Source: Microbacterium galbinum (lineage in GTDB: Bacteria > Actinomycetota > Actinomycetes > Actinomycetales > Microbacteriaceae). From it: a DNA stretch of 64,000 bases. The DNA lies in assembly GCF_023091225.1 (NCBI RefSeq), contig NZ_JAHWXM010000001.1, positions 2,439,913-2,503,912 of the forward strand, in the 5' to 3' direction. The notes beneath the pieces are model-generated. The model made no database searches. It saw only the letters and a list, made by a program, of their open reading frames with translations, and was not told where the DNA came from. Shown here piece by piece: positions 9,012-41,428 of this stretch; the stretch's first letter is position 1; every line of letters starts with the position of its first letter. The position numbers and the translations under genes are program-made.

Positions 9012-10340
9012 ATGCAGCATTCGAAGAAGAAGGCAGCCGGCGCGATCGCCATCGCGGCGCTCGTGCTCACGGGATGCTCCGCCGGTGGCGGAGACACCTC
9101 GACAGGGGGCGACGCCGCCGCCTGCACCCCGGCGGACGGTGACGTCACGCTCGAGTTCACGTCGTGGATCCCCGGGATCGAAGACGTGGTGAAGATCTGG
9201 AACGACGAGAACCCCGAGATCCAGGTGAAGGTGCAGACCGGCCCCAACGGGAACGGCGGCACGTACCAGAACTTCTTCAACCAGCTCCAGGCGGGCGACG
9301 CTCCCGACCTCGGTCAGATCGAGTACGACGCCCTGCCGAACTTCCTCGTGCAGGACGGCATCGAAGACCTCAGCGCCTGCGAAGACGTCGTGGCCGCGGA
9401 GGGCGACTTCGTCGACTGGGCCTGGGGGCAGGTGACGCTCGGCACCGAGGGCGTCTACGGCATCCCGCAGGACATCGGCCCGATGGCGCTGTTCTACCGC
9501 GCCGACCTGTTCGAGCAGAACGACATCCCGATCCCCACCACGTGGGACGAGTACCGCGAGGCCGCGGTGCAGATCCGCGCGCTGGGCGGCTACATCACCA
9601 ACTTCTCGCAGTCCGACATCAACCAGTTCGCCGGCTTCGTGTGGCAGGACGGCGGGCAGTGGTTCTCGAGCGATGACGCCGGCTGGACCGTCTCACTCGA
9701 CGGCGAGCAGTCCGTCTCGGTCGCCGACTACTGGCAGGGTCTGCTCGACGACGACCTCGTCGCCACCGTCCCGGCCTGGACCGACGAGTGGAACAACGCC
9801 TACAACTCGGGCGAGGTCTGGACCTGGAACTCCGCCGTCTGGGGCGCGAACTCCATCTCGAGCGGTGCCCCCGACACGGCCGGCAACTGGGCCGTCGCGC
9901 CGCTCCCGCAGTGGAGCGCGGGTGACTCCGTCGCCGGAAACTGGGGCGGATCGTCGACCGCGGTCCTCAAGGGAAGCGAGCACGTCTACGAGGCGACGAA
10001 GTTCGCGCTGTGGCTGAACACCTCCGAGGAGGCGCTCACCGCTCTCGCCGAGGCCGCGAACCTCTACCCGGCCACCACCGCCGGCCTGAAGCTGCCGGTC
10101 TACGCCGACGGCGTCGACTTCTACGGCGGACAGAAGATCTACGACGTGTTCGCCGAGGCGGCCACGCAGGTGTCGCCGGACTTCGTGTGGGGCCCGACCA
10201 TGACGCAGACCTACGCCGACGTCTCCGACGGTTTCAAGGGTGCGGTCAGCGGCAGTGGCACCCTCGCCGATGCGCTGAAGGACGCGCAGACCTCCACGGT
10301 CGACGCCCTGAAGTCGGCATCGATCCCGGTCACCGAGTAG
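9012..10340 (+). CDS. Sugar ABC transporter substrate-binding lipoprotein
   Basis: 442 residues. The N-terminus is a lipoprotein signal peptide (KKKAAGAIAIAALVLTGCSAGG) with the lipidated Cys in LTGC. The mature part is a cluster B solute-binding protein (family 1), with typical stretches FNQLQAGDAPDLGQIEY, GIPQDIGPMALFYRADLFEQNDIPIPTTWDEY and GNWGGSSTAVLKGSEH. It lies 56 bases after the permease genes and is followed by a terminator. It probably delivers a beta-galactoside or galacto-oligosaccharide to the permeases. Confidence 0.92.
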   Translation: MQHSKKKAAGAIAIAALVLTGCSAGGGDTSTGGDAAACTPADGDVTLEFTSWIPGIEDVVKIWNDENPEIQVKVQTGPNGNGGTYQNFFNQLQAGDAPDLGQIEYDALPNFLVQDGIEDLSACEDVVAAEGDFVDWAWGQVTLGTEGVYGIPQDIGPMALFYRADLFEQNDIPIPTTWDEYREAAVQIRALGGYITNFSQSDINQFAGFVWQDGGQWFSSDDAGWTVSLDGEQSVSVADYWQGLLDDDLVATVPAWTDEWNNAYNSGEVWTWNSAVWGANSISSGAPDTAGNWAVAPLPQWSAGDSVAGNWGGSSTAVLKGSEHVYEATKFALWLNTSEEALTALAEAANLYPATTAGLKLPVYADGVDFYGGQKIYDVFAEAATQVSPDFVWGPTMTQTYADVSDGFKGAVSGSGTLADALKDAQTSTVDALKSASIPVTE

Positions 10341-35013: not shown

Positions 35014-35628
35014 GTGGCAGCGTTCGATCCGGAGTTCAATCGTCGGCCCGAAACCTATGTGCGGCAGCGATCCTGGCCGCGGACGGTGATCTTCCTCGTC
35101 CTCGCGATCCTGGCGGCAGCGATTCTCGTGTACGTGCTCGTGAACTTCGCCGACCTGCGCGAGGATGCCGCGCAGCAGACGGGCTCTACCAGACGCACCG
35201 TCGGTCGCCGGTTGGGAACGCTGGTGGCACCGCTCTTCCTCGCTTTGGTCGTCATCGCGCTTCTCATCGCAGCGGCCCGCTGGGGGCGGGTGTGGAAGCT
35301 CGTCCGGTCCGGCAATCCTCTTCGTAGGCGTCACTACAGTTCGGCCGCGGGAGGGCGTGCTGTCTACGACTCGCTGTTGCGCGCATTCCAGACACATGAT
35401 CCCGCCTTCTTCACTCCTCTCCCCCCGCAGCCATCCCACACGAACGTGGAGATCGAGTTCTGGACGTCGAAGGAAGACCGGCTCGGCCTGGCGACGCTCG
35501 TGCTCTACGAAGGGAAGAACAACAAGGAACGCACGTTCTCCGAACCCGTCGTCTTCGAGGGCGCGGACTACGACGCGCTGGAAGCCGCGCTCAAGCGAGG
35601 CTTGACGGAAGCATCTGCTCCGCGCTGA
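35014..35628 (+). CDS. Two-helix membrane protein of unknown function
   Basis: 204 residues, GTG start. Transmembrane helices near 24-44 (VIFLVLAILAAAILVYVLV) and 70-90 (LVAPLFLALVVIALLIAAARW); the C-terminal 110 residues are soluble. No family recognised. Codon use is slightly less GC-biased than its neighbours. Confidence 0.6.
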   Translation: MAAFDPEFNRRPETYVRQRSWPRTVIFLVLAILAAAILVYVLVNFADLREDAAQQTGSTRRTVGRRLGTLVAPLFLALVVIALLIAAARWGRVWKLVRSGNPLRRRHYSSAAGGRAVYDSLLRAFQTHDPAFFTPLPPQPSHTNVEIEFWTSKEDRLGLATLVLYEGKNNKERTFSEPVVFEGADYDALEAALKRGLTEASAPR

Positions 35629-35802
35629 AAAGGCGGCGGACAGGGACGACCGGTCCGTCGATCTTGACCTCACCCGGGATCATTTCGTCCCCGTGAAAAC
35701 CCAATCTCACACTCTTCGTCGGTCGGCCGGTGTATCGTAGCGGCTCGGCGGCAGCACACCCGAACGTGCTCCGCGATCGCCTGCGACTCGATGAGGATTG
35801 TG

Positions 35803-37203
35803 ATGACCGACGCGTTTCCCCCCGACGCGGCGACTGCCCGTTCCGGCGCCGGTAATGATTCCGATGACGCGCCTTCGCTCGATCCCGCTGACTTGAACGC
35901 TCTCGTGCTTCGGGCGGCGGAGGGAGATCGTGATGCCGCGGGCGAGTACTTCGCGCAGGTGCTCCCGTCGTTGACTCACACGTCCAAACGGATCGCCGGC
36001 ATTACGCACGACGCCGACGATCTGCTCGGCGATGCGCTGCTGATGGTGCTGGCGAAGTGGTCGCAGGGCACGGGCCCGACCGAGAACGTGCCGGCGTACA
36101 TCGCGCAGACCATGCGCAATCGCATCCGTGACGACTTCCGCTCGCCGCGGTCGAAGGTCGCCCCGCTCGACAACGTCGAGGAGCCGGCGTCGAGCGCCGA
36201 TCCGCGCATCCGCGAACTCGAGATCGAGTCGGAGCTGGCGATCGTGCGCAAGGCGCTCGCCGAGTTGCCGTCTGACCAGCAGCGTGTGCTCGTCGCGACC
36301 GTGCTCGAGGGGCGCAAGCCGCGCGACCTCGAAGAGCACATGGCGCGTCCGGCATCCGCGATCTATTCGCTGTCGCGCCGGGCGAAGGGGAATCTGCGTC
36401 GCACGACCCTGCGGCTGCTGCTCGAGGAGAACGCCCGGCCTGAGTGCGTGGCGGCGGCGCAGCTGCTGCCCGATGCGGTGGGCGACACCCCCGAGGGCAC
36501 GAAAGGCGGCCGGGCGACCGACCACTACCGCACCTGCCCGTATTGCCGTCGGTCGTGGAAACGATTCGCCGGGCTCGCGACGCTCGGCGCACTGCCGCTC
36601 GCGGGAGCGGTGGCACTGGCCGGCCCGTCGGGCTCGGCCGAGGCCAGCGAGCAACCGGTCGACGGGACGGATGCCTCGGCGCCGGAGATGCCGGCGGATG
36701 CTCCCGCCGATGTCCCGGCCGACGTTCCTTCCGATGCTGGTTCCGGGTCGTTCTGGCAGGAGTGGGCGCGCACGACGGCGATGCTCGCGGCCGCCGCGAC
36801 GGCGCTCGTGCTCATGACGGTGGTCGTCGTGACCTTCGTCACGAAGACGTGGTTCTTCGCCGAGACCCCGCCGGGTTCGTTGACGGTGACGGCCGTGCAG
36901 GTAGACGATGCGACCAGCGAGTTCGACATGTCGCTCGCCATCGAGGACGAATCGTGGACGGTCGGGTTCCTCCGGATCGACCTGTCCGTCGACGTCGAGT
37001 CGGTGTCGGCTCCCTCCGGATGGGACTGTCTCGTCGAGGGCGGTGACGTGACGTGCACGACCGGTCTCGATTCTCCGGGTGGTGGGCGCTTCGACATCGG
37101 GCATGTCCCGGGCGCGCAGATCGAGTACGAGTTCCGTTTCGATGGCCGCACAGAGGGTGGGGCGATGCTCACCGGCGCCTCCACGGGCACGATCGACGAC
37201 TGA
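35803..37203 (+). CDS. ECF-type sigma factor fused to zinc-finger-like, transmembrane and C-terminal beta domain
   Basis: 466 residues. Residues 43-115 form sigma region 2 (HDADDLLGDALLMVLAKW, then RNRIRDDFR) and 143-200 region 4 (LAELPSDQQRVLVATVLEGRKPRDLEEHM ... IYSLSRRAKGNLRR). H241-x3-C245-x2-C248 resembles the zinc motif of anti-sigma domains. Hydrophobic segments lie at 255-274 (weak) and 325-347 (strong), separated by a Pro/Asp-rich linker. The C-terminal 120 residues are beta-rich with Cys409 and Cys418 in the pattern WDC...VTCT, like DUF11-type surface domains. It looks like a membrane-tethered sigma factor with built-in sensor. The ATG at 35803 is preferred over 35791. Confidence 0.8.
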   Translation: MTDAFPPDAATARSGAGNDSDDAPSLDPADLNALVLRAAEGDRDAAGEYFAQVLPSLTHTSKRIAGITHDADDLLGDALLMVLAKWSQGTGPTENVPAYIAQTMRNRIRDDFRSPRSKVAPLDNVEEPASSADPRIRELEIESELAIVRKALAELPSDQQRVLVATVLEGRKPRDLEEHMARPASAIYSLSRRAKGNLRRTTLRLLLEENARPECVAAAQLLPDAVGDTPEGTKGGRATDHYRTCPYCRRSWKRFAGLATLGALPLAGAVALAGPSGSAEASEQPVDGTDASAPEMPADAPADVPADVPSDAGSGSFWQEWARTTAMLAAAATALVLMTVVVVTFVTKTWFFAETPPGSLTVTAVQVDDATSEFDMSLAIEDESWTVGFLRIDLSVDVESVSAPSGWDCLVEGGDVTCTTGLDSPGGGRFDIGHVPGAQIEYEFRFDGRTEGGAMLTGASTGTIDD

Positions 37204-37250
37204 TTTCGTGTGCCACCGACAGATTCCGTCGCTGGACCCGTCAACTGAGT

Positions 37251-38084
37251 GTGGGGAGCCTTCTCCCCATTCGACCCTCCCCAGTGACCAACACCGGTGC
37301 CGCTGCCTTCACGGCGGATGCCCCGGCGACGGTCTCGGATGATCTCTCGGGTGTGCTCGACGATGCGACCTACAACGGCGACGCCTCGAACGGTGCGACC
37401 TACGCCGCCCCGATCCTGTCGTGGTCGCTCGCGATCCCCGTCGAGGACAGCGTCACGCTGACCTACTCGGTGACCGTGAACGCCCCCGCGACCGGTGACC
37501 TCGACCTCGCCAATACCGTCACCCCGGGTGATGGCGGCGAGTGCCTCGAGGAGGGCTCGTGCGTCACGAACACGCCGATCTCCGCGTACGAGGTCTCTAA
37601 GTCGGTCGACACGGAGACCACGGCCGCGGGTCAGAAGGTGACCTACACGATCGCCATCGGCAACACCGGTGCGGTCGCGTACACCGACGAGACGCCGGCA
37701 TCGTTCACCGACGACCTGTCGGAGGTGCTCGACGACGCGACCTACAACGGCGACGCGACGAACGGCGCGACCTACACCGCTCCGGTGCTGAGCTGGGCGG
37801 GTGCGCTCGAGGTCGGCCAGGTCGTCTCGGTCACCTACAGCGTCACGGTCAACGATCCCCTCACGGGCGACCGTGAGCTCGTGAACGCGGTGCTCCCCGG
37901 TGACGGCGGAGCGTGCGGCGACGCGTGCTCGGTCACCACGACGGTCACGCCGCCGGCCCCGCCGCTGGCGACCACGGGTCTGAACCCGTGGATCGTGGGC
38001 GGGGGCCTCGGAGTCGCGACGCTGGCGATCCTCGCCGGACTCGCACTGCTCCTGGTGCGCCGTCGTCAGAACATCACGGAGTAA
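37251..38084 (+). pseudogene. DUF11-repeat surface protein, N-terminally truncated, with LATTG sorting signal
   Basis: The frame encodes two DUF11-type repeats sharing DDLS.VLDDATYNGDA.NGATY, then PPLATTGLNPW, a transmembrane helix (WIVGGGLGVATLAILAGLALLL) and RRR: a cell-wall sorting signal of the LAxTG type used by class E sortases. It opens in the middle of a repeat (VTNTGAAAFTADAPATVSDDLS) with no signal peptide. Only weak GTG starts exist (37251 or 37284). So it appears decapitated by a deletion, or the assembly collapsed a larger repeat gene. It starts 48 bases after the sigma fusion gene. Confidence 0.7.
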
Positions 38085-38102
38085 TCGAGAAGTAAGGCAG
38101 AG

Positions 38103-38138
38103 GTGAACGGGCGGGGCCATCAGGCCTCGCCCGTTCAC
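38103..38138 (+). terminator. Terminator-like hairpin after the DUF11 gene
   Basis: A 16-bp stem with one G-T pair (gtgaacgggcggggcc / ggcctcgcccgttcac) and an ATCA loop. No T tract follows. It lies 18 bases after the DUF11 stop and 12 bases before the next gene. Confidence 0.75.
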
Positions 38139-38150
38139 CGCATCCACGAC

Positions 38151-38831
38151 ATGTCACGCATACATCTCTTAACTGTCACCCGTTTTGCGGCCGTGCTCGC
38201 GATCGCACTGCCGGTGCTGGGCCTGCTCGGCTTCGGTGGGGCTCCGGCGGCCGCCGCCGAGCAGTCGGCGCCGAACATCGCGGTCACGCTCACGAGCGAC
38301 GCCGAGGCTCTCGCCGCGGGGGAGCGGATCACCTACACTGCCGAGATCGTGAACAGGGGTGAGGCCGTTCAGGCCCGCGTGGTGCTCACCCCGCCCACCT
38401 ACGTCGCACTCGGCTCGCTCGACGGGGCCGAGGTCGACGGAAACGAGGCGACCTGGTCGCTCACCCTCGGAGCGGCCGAGACGAAGACGATCGAGATCCC
38501 CGCGCGGATCGGCGACATCCCCGAGGCCGAGCTGCGGGCGACCGCGCTGCTCAGCCTCTACGTCGGCGATGGGACGAGTCCGCTCGTGCGGACCGCCTCG
38601 GCGGACCCGATCGACGGTGTCGACGACGTGCAGACCGAGGTCGGTCCGCTGCCCGGCATCCTGCTCTCGGTGGGAATCGGCTTGGTCGTGGTGCTGATCG
38701 TGCTCGCGGTCGTGTTCATCGTGCTGCAGCGCCGTCGTCGCGCCGCAGAGGAAGCGGCCAAGCGCGACGCATGGGTCGGGTACGCGCGGCGCGAGTCGCA
38801 GCCGACGGATGCCGAGGCCGAGGAGCGCTGA
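38151..38831 (+). CDS. Secreted, membrane-anchored DUF11-type protein
   Basis: 226 residues. A signal peptide (FAAVLAIALPVLGLLGFGGAPAAAAE) is followed by one DUF11-like beta domain (about 35-160; APNIAVTLTSDAEALAAGERITYTAEIVNRG). Next come a transmembrane helix (about 173-196; ILLSVGIGLVVVLIVLAVVFIVL) and a basic cytoplasmic tail. The ATG at 38151 is chosen because a GTG at 38103 lies within the terminator stem. It likely works with the preceding DUF11 protein or its sigma regulator. Confidence 0.75.
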   Translation: MSRIHLLTVTRFAAVLAIALPVLGLLGFGGAPAAAAEQSAPNIAVTLTSDAEALAAGERITYTAEIVNRGEAVQARVVLTPPTYVALGSLDGAEVDGNEATWSLTLGAAETKTIEIPARIGDIPEAELRATALLSLYVGDGTSPLVRTASADPIDGVDDVQTEVGPLPGILLSVGIGLVVVLIVLAVVFIVLQRRRRAAEEAAKRDAWVGYARRESQPTDAEAEER

Positions 38832-40425: not shown

Positions 40426-40461
40426 GACGAGCGAGCGTCAGGAATCTGACGCTCGCTCGTC
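40426..40461 (-). terminator. Rho-independent terminator of the gene ending at 40486
   Basis: A perfect 15-bp stem (gacgagcgagcgtca / tgacgctcgctcgtc) with a 6-base loop. On the minus strand it is followed by AATCTTTT, giving a proper T tract 25 bases after the stop. Confidence 0.9.
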
Positions 40462-40485: not shown

Positions 40486-41190
40486 TCAGCTCTTGATCGG
40501 CAGCACCTTGAACTTGCCGGTCGTGCCCGGAGCGGGCGGAACGACGACGGCGAACTCGCTCTTGCCCTGCGTCGGGGCGATGACGACCTCGGCGGGGATG
40601 CCCGGTGCGATCACCGCGGCGGGGATGCCGGTGAGCACGCCCGCCTTCGTCGCGCTGGTGGTGAACGCCTTGAGCGCCTTCTTATCGAGGCTCGTGACGT
40701 AGGTCTGGAACTGCAGGGCGATCGCGTCGAAGCTCTCGTCGGGGATGCTCGGGTGCGAGATCAGCACGGTGTCGACCGTCTGGTTGCCGTTCTTGACCTG
40801 CAGCCCGGTGTAGCGCTGCTTGCCGACCCAGCCGCGCGACTGGAAGTCGGTGAAGAGGTTCGCGCCCGCGTTCTTGCGCGTCGCGAAGTGCACGATCAGC
40901 AGGATGATGCCGAGCGGCACGAGGATGAGCGGGGCGAAGGAGTAGACGTACGACCACACCTCGCTGCGTCCGCTCGAGTACTCGAAGAGGTCGGGGCGGA
41001 AGAGCAGCTGCGGGATGTACTCCCACGCCCAGTCCACGGCCTGACCGGTCGAGAAGAGGTTGAACGCGAACGCCGCGGCGCCGAGCCCGAGGCTCGTCCA
41101 GCCGAGGCTCGAGACGGTGCGTTTGCCGTCGACCGCCTTCGCGAAACCTTCGGGCGTGGACAGTTGGTGTTGGACGGTAGCCAGGGTCAT
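40486..41190 (-). CDS. Two-helix membrane protein of unknown function
   Basis: 234 residues. Transmembrane helices near 29-47 (LGWTSLGLGAAAFAFNLF) and 83-104 (FAPLILVPLGIILLIVHFA). The soluble C-terminal half ends in a Pro/Gly/Lys-rich tail (PPAPGTTGKFKVLP). No family recognised. Monocistronic with its own terminator. Confidence 0.65.
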   Translation of the reverse strand: MTLATVQHQLSTPEGFAKAVDGKRTVSSLGWTSLGLGAAAFAFNLFSTGQAVDWAWEYIPQLLFRPDLFEYSSGRSEVWSYVYSFAPLILVPLGIILLIVHFATRKNAGANLFTDFQSRGWVGKQRYTGLQVKNGNQTVDTVLISHPSIPDESFDAIALQFQTYVTSLDKKALKAFTTSATKAGVLTGIPAAVIAPGIPAEVVIAPTQGKSEFAVVVPPAPGTTGKFKVLPIKS

Positions 41191-41256
41191 GCGCCCGAGC
41201 ATAGCGAAACCTGTGCGGCCGCTATGGCAGTGGACATGGGGAGTAATCCCCACCGG

Positions 41257-41293
41257 GGTGGCCGGCATCCGCATGCAAGAGATGCCGGCCACC
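41257..41293. repeat. Inverted repeat ggtggccggcatc / gatgccggccacc
   Basis: Perfect 13-base arms with an 11-base loop, in the 238-base gap between 41190 and 41429. It could terminate the gene ending at 41429 only in the wrong direction, so it is more likely a dispersed repeat or leader of the upstream gene. Confidence 0.7.
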
Positions 41294-41428
41294 TGCGGTG
41301 GACGACACCCCCATGCCGCCCACCTGTGGCCTCGATATTCCCGGATCGAGGGCGGAAGCGAAGACCGAGACTCCGCTTCCACATCTATTGACGGATGGAG
41401 TGCAGGAATCTGTCGCAGATTCCGGAAA

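Follow-up and report, generated by a model that had tools for sequence, protein, structure and literature searches.

The window analysed here is a 64,000-nucleotide stretch of the Microbacterium galbinum genome (NCBI RefSeq assembly GCF_023091225.1, contig NZ_JAHWXM010000001.1, positions 2,439,913 to 2,503,912 of the forward strand). It encodes a 466-residue protein in which an extracytoplasmic function (ECF) sigma factor is joined, in one chain, to a zinc-type anti-sigma-like segment, a predicted membrane helix, and a C-terminal beta domain. We propose, with a probability of roughly 60%, that this ECF sigma factor is tethered at the membrane, inhibits itself, and controls both its own gene and the adjacent surface-structure genes. 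Its relatives mostly lie beside genes for sortase-anchored proteins, and a shared, putatively regulatory motif ties the sigma and surface genes together.

The sigma gene is preceded by GAGGA about 8 bases 5′ of its ATG at 35803. The parts of the gene, by position in the window, are:

35803..37203, + strand: putative membrane-tethered ECF sigma factor, an intact open reading frame (ORF) from ATG 35803 to the stop at 37203, 466 residues
35953..36144, + strand: Sigma-70 region 2 (residues 51-114; PF04542, E 8.5e-6)
36241..36387, + strand: Sigma-70 region 4 (residues 147-195; PF08281, E 8.3e-5)
36439..36582, + strand: anti-sigma-like zinc segment (residues 213-260, with C215, H241, C245, and C248), from conserved ligands and predicted helices
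36565..36621, + strand: first hydrophobic segment (residues 255-273), with a fixed AxA-type site behind it; its hydropathy and broken helix make a membrane span unlikely
36748..36843, + strand: predicted membrane-spanning helix (residues 316-347), a 32-residue helix with predicted local distance difference test (pLDDT) scores of 51-84 by blocks
36859..37200, + strand: predicted immunoglobulin (Ig)/cohesin-like beta-sandwich (residues 353-466) with the invariant C409/C418 pair

The protein is an ECF sigma factor, with both sigma regions 2 and 4. Region 2 of the window protein scores above the Pfam cut-off (25.9 versus 24 bits) and region 4 slightly below it (22.6 versus 25.7 bits). NCBIfam TIGR02937 matches residues 45-200 (52.9 bits, cut-off 42.9), and the PDB profile matches include CnrH and SigL, among others. 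Behind the sigma domains, H241-x3-C245-x2-C248 is invariant in all 41 aligned relatives. A fourth likely zinc ligand, C215, is a cysteine in 39 of the 41, at a spacing of 25-27, and helices are predicted at residues 213-220, 239-244, and 246-260. This pattern of Hx3Cx2C with an upstream ligand marks the segment as a putative fused class I zinc anti-sigma domain. We did not find a zf-HC2-type profile in the window protein with Pfam at E up to 1; PF13490 is listed solely for two distant proteins, P0040 and P0041, both with a zf-HC2 domain.

A protein search returned 39 matches, 38 with the window architecture and one distant. The window protein's own cluster is the first of the 38, and the lowest alignment identity among them is 34%. 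A profile search recovered 37 of these 38, together with the distant P0040 and a new distant protein, P0041. Twenty genomic loci, in Microbacterium and other genera of its family, have a significant match to the ectodomain profile. A 21st locus (L106), with a distant sigma factor and no ectodomain match, was retained in the neighbour count. The genome scans scored four to eight candidates per genome and therefore do not demonstrate absence. The family is patchy in the genus, with a full-length match in at least 11 of 366 genomes (four candidates scored per genome). A frameshift or misassembly joining two genes, which had been named as a possible source of the chain, is ruled out by the recurrence of the architecture in 38 database proteins and 20 genomic loci; the gene is a single, real one. 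A sequence-only reading of the window had described this polypeptide of sigma regions 2 and 4, Hx3Cx2C segment, membrane segment, and C-terminal beta domain with a cysteine pair, and the profiles, the 41-sequence alignment, and the predicted structure bear it out.

The structure model was made from P0002, which differs from the window protein at two residues. Residues 358-464 are confidently predicted to be all-beta (pLDDT 88-97 by blocks), and in the model the C-terminal domain has an Ig/cohesin-like beta-sandwich fold. C409 and C418, invariant in 41/41 relatives, are placed by the model on facing hairpin strands (407-412 and 415-420). Among the best fold matches are cohesin-like modules along with the adhesins FnBPA, UafA, and ClfA; these were drawn from the VIA-align list, which leaves room for families outside that list. 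The WDC...VTCT pattern of this domain had been taken to resemble DUF11, a likeness that did not hold. DUF11/DUF7927 was rejected as its identity by Pfam, a local DUF11 profile, and profile-profile comparison: Pfam at E up to 10 gave no family for the window's isolated ectodomain, 0/41 ectodomains matched a local DUF11 model built from 68 domains, and hhalign gave a probability of 0.5% for the ectodomain against DUF11. Seven ectodomains were also scanned singly with Pfam. Three had no family and four had one weak match each, these being UL42 (E 0.15), MBG_3 (0.037), DUF1236 (0.039), and, at L101, DUF5979 (E 0.0019, 19.2 versus a cut-off of 25).

Sortase-anchored genes are common near this family. 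Within 4 kb of the sigma gene, such a gene occurs at 17 of 21 loci, versus 1 of 22 control loci of a sister family (Fisher p 2e-7), and at 14 of 18 with near-duplicates removed (p 2e-6); the loci are related, and these p values are a guide only. The near-duplicates are L014/window, L025/L091, and L096/L097, where L014 lies in a genome (G604) classed as the same species as the window. In 17/17 cases the nearest anchored gene shares the strand of the sigma gene; without L106 the locus count is 17/20. An anchored gene was defined by LxxTG, a hydrophobic stretch, and a positive tail, with one pattern for both groups; an earlier, narrower pattern with an overlap rule that dropped L104 gave 16/21. 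The controls comprise 20 sister-family loci picked from listings and two of five Agreia loci, and one control locus (L121) has only 590 bases on one side. Most sorting motifs are LAxTG, the form used by class E sortases. The window genome encodes two sortases as well as one site-2 protease homologue.

The constant feature of the partners is the sortase-type anchor; their passenger domains vary. Partners have RCC1 repeats (L019, L025, L029, L101, L104, L105), beta-helix or other repeats alongside He_PIG (L096, L026), DUF5979 and Big_8 (L095), DUF7507/DUF11 and SpaA_3 (L103), SdrD_B in a giant protein (L015), or DUF7927 (window), the scan having covered all partners except those of L091, L097, and L098. 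SpaA-type pilus genes occur at two loci (L100, L102), with a sortase at one. The gene order at L102 is sigma, SpaA_3 tip-like protein, major pilin (GramPos_pilinD1), sortase, LuxR-type regulator, and short sigma. At L100 it is sigma, unknown protein, LuxR-type regulator, short sigma, SpaA protein, and major pilin; this pilin lies beyond 4 kb, hence L100 is counted among the misses. A partnership with DUF11 as a general rule was rejected, since the passenger domains differ between loci. The idea that the ectodomain matches DUF11 partners is not supported by the domain comparisons above. As for whether homologues always adjoin DUF11/LAxTG genes, an anchored gene is near most of them; neither the "always" nor the DUF11 part stands. 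The broader claim of a one-protein tethered sigma unit tied to surface-protein genes is upheld by the locus counts and by a shared promoter-like motif.

The motif, GWCAGATTC-N11-YCGTY, was found in a leave-one-out test upstream of the sigma gene, the surface gene, or both at 12 of 20 tested loci. It was first noticed by eye, in upstream stretches sharing CAGATT and YCGT at one distance, and was tested afterwards. The leave-one-out test covered 420 bases, with a threshold, taken from the full matrix, at the 0.1% level of 4000 control stretches. Its 20 loci include L106 and omit L099 (contig end), and the count among those with the ectodomain is 12/19; sites were also found in 2 of 4 short-sigma loci. 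The motif matrix was built on family loci, so that its result of 40 versus 1 is partly circular; the leave-one-out test was made per locus. CAGATT-Nk-CYCGT in family loci has k=11 in 14 of 20 matches, and all other k of 5-21 together account for 6. The 14 count L093/L016 twice and include the inverted-repeat site of the window and L014. CAGATT-N11-CYCGT was not found in 461 kb of control loci. Two exact matches in the window are:

37218..37242, + strand: promoter-like motif GACAGATTCCGTCGCTGGACCCGTC, upstream of a DUF7927 remnant (leave-one-out score 23.2 versus the 0.1% control threshold of 11.3)
41390..41414, − strand: second exact motif match, upstream of the membrane-protein ORF 40486-41382 (−), also in L014

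The 3.57-Mb window genome has five exact matches to GWCAGATTN12YCGTY and none to the reversed pattern. A match at 40426-40450 (−) lies within a perfect 15-bp inverted repeat, 3′ of the 40486-41382 gene and 5′ of a GntR-like gene (by eye). It is probably a terminator and was excluded from the targets. Further exact matches are at the 5′ end of an RCC1 ORF at a paralogous locus and elsewhere in the genome (one). For the match at C1:1405125, which is conserved in G604, there is no obvious target among the genes on the same strand. Across the 366 genus genomes there are 79 matches versus 4 for the reversed pattern (totals counted by hand), and 29 of the 79 are in the 11 genomes with a full-length sigma. 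Three or more matches occur in only five of the 366 genomes, all five carrying a full-length sigma. In G002, the sigma factor is the simplest reader of the motif, because this genome gave one family match and has motif copies upstream of both the sigma and the surface gene. A match in G143 distant from the sigma locus precedes a secreted-looking protein with a terminal membrane segment. At L015 a match lies between the sigma and the giant surface gene, about 630 bases before the latter and beyond the 420-base test range.

Some further sequences near these genes are recorded here. A motif variant, GTGAGATTC, precedes the short sigma in L025 and L032. Extra motif copies lie directly 3′ of the RCC1 gene at L019 (11086-11110) and L029 (11430-11454), with no clear gene after them; these may perhaps belong to small RNAs. 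A GAAC...CGT-type promoter was also considered and rejected; among 36 upstream stretches, it matched only those of the L096/L097 sigma gene and of the L019 surface gene. A conserved GGTGTATCGT (window 35729-35738; also in L014 and L015) lies 65-75 bases 5′ of the sigma gene and is possibly a housekeeping -10 element.

We infer the following mode of action. The zinc-type, class I-like anti-sigma segment would keep the N-terminal sigma domain of the same chain silent. One membrane helix would tether the sigma factor at the inner face, with the adhesin-like beta-sandwich outside. A signal from outside would then free the sigma domain, probably by regulated proteolysis, by analogy with the ECF52 proposal and the case of IutY described below. 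The freed sigma factor would transcribe from GWCAGATTC-N11-YCGTY promoters, i.e., those of its own gene (in several relatives) and of adjacent sortase-anchored or pilus genes.

The proposed topology depends on which of two conserved hydrophobic segments, 255-273 and about 330-350, spans the membrane. Their mean hydropathy is 1.86 and 2.34, respectively. The predicted helix of the first is interrupted at 261-263, with low confidence, and the helix at 316-347 is the sole long one of the predicted structure in this region. The N-side flank of the second segment is more positive than its C-side in 33 of 41 relatives, less in 1, and equal in 7. If the second segment alone spans the membrane, this bias would place the linker on the inner and the beta domain on the outer side. 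A single span is, in our judgement, likely, and an outside position of the beta domain is favoured by the positive-inside bias and the cysteine pair, with a compatible fold. Several observations count against our proposal as a whole, and some concern this topology. The predicted template modelling score is only 0.36, i.e., the arrangement of the domains is not predicted. A signal-peptidase-like AxA site (window 36565-36660) follows the first segment in 39/41 relatives (shuffles: mean 15, maximum 26), and the linker is short, A/P/D-rich, and acidic in the window clade. The fold list also has the intracellular beta-sandwiches of BBSome, AP-2 mu, ApaG, and transglutaminase 2. The AxA site, the acidic linker, and these intracellular matches would fit a topology in which the first segment either crosses the membrane or is cleaved at the AxA site, and the beta domain is cytoplasmic with its two cysteines as an internal redox switch. 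Such an arrangement appears quite improbable to us, as the positive flank before the second segment, the broken, low-confidence helix of the first, and the cell-surface adhesin domains among the top fold matches all speak against it. What had been expected of the C-terminal domain holds for the beta fold with its cysteine pair; the outside location is favoured, with intracellular proteins also among the fold matches.

The remaining points against our proposal concern its targets. No anchored gene was found within 4 kb at 4 of 21 loci (L093, L099, L100, L106), of which L099 starts 360 bases from a contig end, and the anchored gene counted for the window and L014 is a remnant. The motif was absent in 8 of 20 tested loci (L026, L095-L098, L104-L106) and, in the same leave-one-out test, upstream of the window's own sigma gene. 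Fifty of the 79 genus matches occur singly or in pairs in the other 355 genomes, where no full-length match was found, and a short soluble sigma paralogue near some loci could read the motif there. The loci without a motif and the patchiness of the family would suit a general envelope-stress one-component sigma factor of the ECF52/53 kind, with a regulon elsewhere and a proximity to surface genes arising merely from variable surface-gene islands. So would the anatomy of the widespread sister family with long outer parts, where two segments were present in 10/10 proteins inspected and a third in four. We consider this unlikely: the sister family is seldom near anchored genes (1/22), and the motif joins sigma and surface genes and is rare genome-wide. 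If the protein is a self-inhibited sigma factor as proposed, its signal could be a ligand (polysaccharide, or a host or neighbour surface) for which adhesins or pili are then induced, rather than the assembly of its own structures. This is a choice of signal within our explanation and not an exclusive alternative, and we hold it only tentatively. Consistent with it are the ligand-binding surface modules among the fold matches (cohesin-like, FnBPA, ClfA, UafA), an ectodomain that is highly variable between two strains of one species, and the single ectodomain family beside differing partner proteins. More doubtful is a surface-fibre checkpoint, in which the outer domain would meet or mimic the anchored protein or pilin next door and signal, via the in-chain anti-sigma, whether to continue making the structure. 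Partners would then have been exchanged in evolution around a persisting sigma factor with its variable outer domain and promoter motif.

The window locus itself has been altered. The features downstream of the sigma gene are:

37205..37287, + strand: leader of a lost surface gene, by homology to the leader of the L015 giant gene (71% over 84 aligned columns, E 1.65e-4)
37251..38084, + strand: 5′-truncated DUF7927/DUF11 surface-protein remnant, starting inside a domain
38151..38831, + strand: single-domain DUF11-like membrane protein without a sortase motif (DUF11 24.5 versus a cut-off of 24.6 bits)

The homology to the L015 leader stops at most a few bases from the start of the DUF7927 sequence, and the in-frame GTG of the remnant at 37251 falls in the leader. 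We saw no signal peptide in ORF 37251-38084, which keeps a LATTG anchor at 37965-37979. Judging from these alignments, the downstream surface gene lost its 5′ part and retained the promoter motif and leader. The identical truncation is present in L014 and, because both strains share it, is no assembly fault. The intact unit must be read from relatives, because the window's nearest anchored gene is this truncated remnant. The 38151-38831 product has a signal-like N-terminus and a terminal membrane segment (read by eye). A description of both genes as DUF11-type surface or membrane proteins therefore needs revision for the first, a 5′-deleted remnant without a signal peptide, and suits the second, which is DUF11-like at 0.1 bit under the cut-off. 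Between them, a long hairpin at 38103-38138 (14/15 pairs matched, no T-run) could be a terminator or act in translation control.

L014 has the motif 5′ of its sigma gene, at 9795-9819 of that locus; the window does not. There the window has about 0.7 kb of extra DNA that L014 is without; it carries a small membrane-protein ORF (35014-35628), flanked by the sigma gene and a galM-like gene (by eye). The flanking DNA of the two is 94-98.5% identical, and for araB/araD and the two genes downstream the synonymous divergence (dS) is 0.02-0.05, the downstream two alone giving 0.02-0.04. In the sigma gene the pattern is mosaic, with 92-99% identity in the middle (36040-36639), and the ectodomain (36859-37200) has 59.5% amino acid identity and a dS of 0.75. 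This mosaic suggests that the gene has recombined with divergent alleles. In eight close relatives, variation is far greater in the outer domain than in the sigma core, and residues 1-60 vary as well.

A short sigma factor (191-305 residues, no membrane part) recurs near L025, L031, L032, L093, L100, and L102, and those of L017, L030, and L031 have an Hx3Cx2C end. LuxR-type regulators accompany it, by Pfam in L025, L100, and L102, at the borderline in L032, and by eye in L031 and L093. In our tree, 13 local ECF52-like proteins (named by architecture) form their own clade on a long branch, with support of 100/100. Outside it, the full-length family is intermixed with the short sigmas; the former is not one clade with respect to the latter (4 changes), and the root is weak. 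The tree contained local ECF52-like proteins and no characterised ECF52 sequence.

Several known systems resemble the window protein. The BldN-RsbN system of Streptomyces, which is linked to chaplins and rodlins, likewise has an ECF sigma and a membrane anti-sigma tied to cell-surface proteins. It is made of two proteins, and RsbN is of a different anti-sigma class (excerpts of PMC8103513). The Hx3Cx2C pattern over bundle helices is as in class I zinc anti-sigma domains, which are described as usually separate proteins (excerpts of PMC7406223); in the window protein the segment is in cis and has no Pfam zf-HC2 match. SCO4117 of Streptomyces coelicolor, called the first characterised ECF52 in 2018, also combines a sigma domain, a zinc finger, a membrane segment, and an outer domain in a single chain, and its release by proteolysis has been proposed (excerpts of PMC5826349). 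A proline-rich stretch, a carbohydrate-binding module, and a pleiotropic developmental regulon are ECF52's own (same excerpts). Unlike ECF52, the window family has a short linker, an adhesin-like beta-sandwich, linkage to anchored genes, and its own candidate promoter motif. We found no carbohydrate-binding module in the window's isolated ectodomain (Pfam, E up to 10) and no long proline-rich stretch, and in the tree the family falls outside the clade of local ECF52-like proteins. In the actinobacterial groups ECF48 and ECF53, too, the sigma factor is fused to a zinc-type anti-sigma part, together with one or two membrane helices, and IutY of Pseudomonas putida (ECF243) is a sigma fused to a membrane anti-sigma and freed by regulated proteolysis, in its own case for cell-surface signalling by the siderophore aerobactin (excerpts of PMC8999054). 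In the open-licence literature that we searched there was no report linking ECF48/ECF53 to sortase-anchored surface genes, nor one of the combination of a sigma factor, an adhesin-like domain, and anchored genes.

What is new in this family is an outer domain resembling adhesins, the motif, and the linkage to pili and sortase-anchored genes; the proposed mode of action resembles that of the ECF48/52/53 fusions. Fusions of the ECF52/53 type are known mainly by architecture. In the window family the candidate regulon is compact, the candidate promoter is defined at 25 bases, and the likely targets form a clear class, which makes signal, release, and output testable. The family also hints at a way for actinobacteria to control adhesins and pili through one protein.

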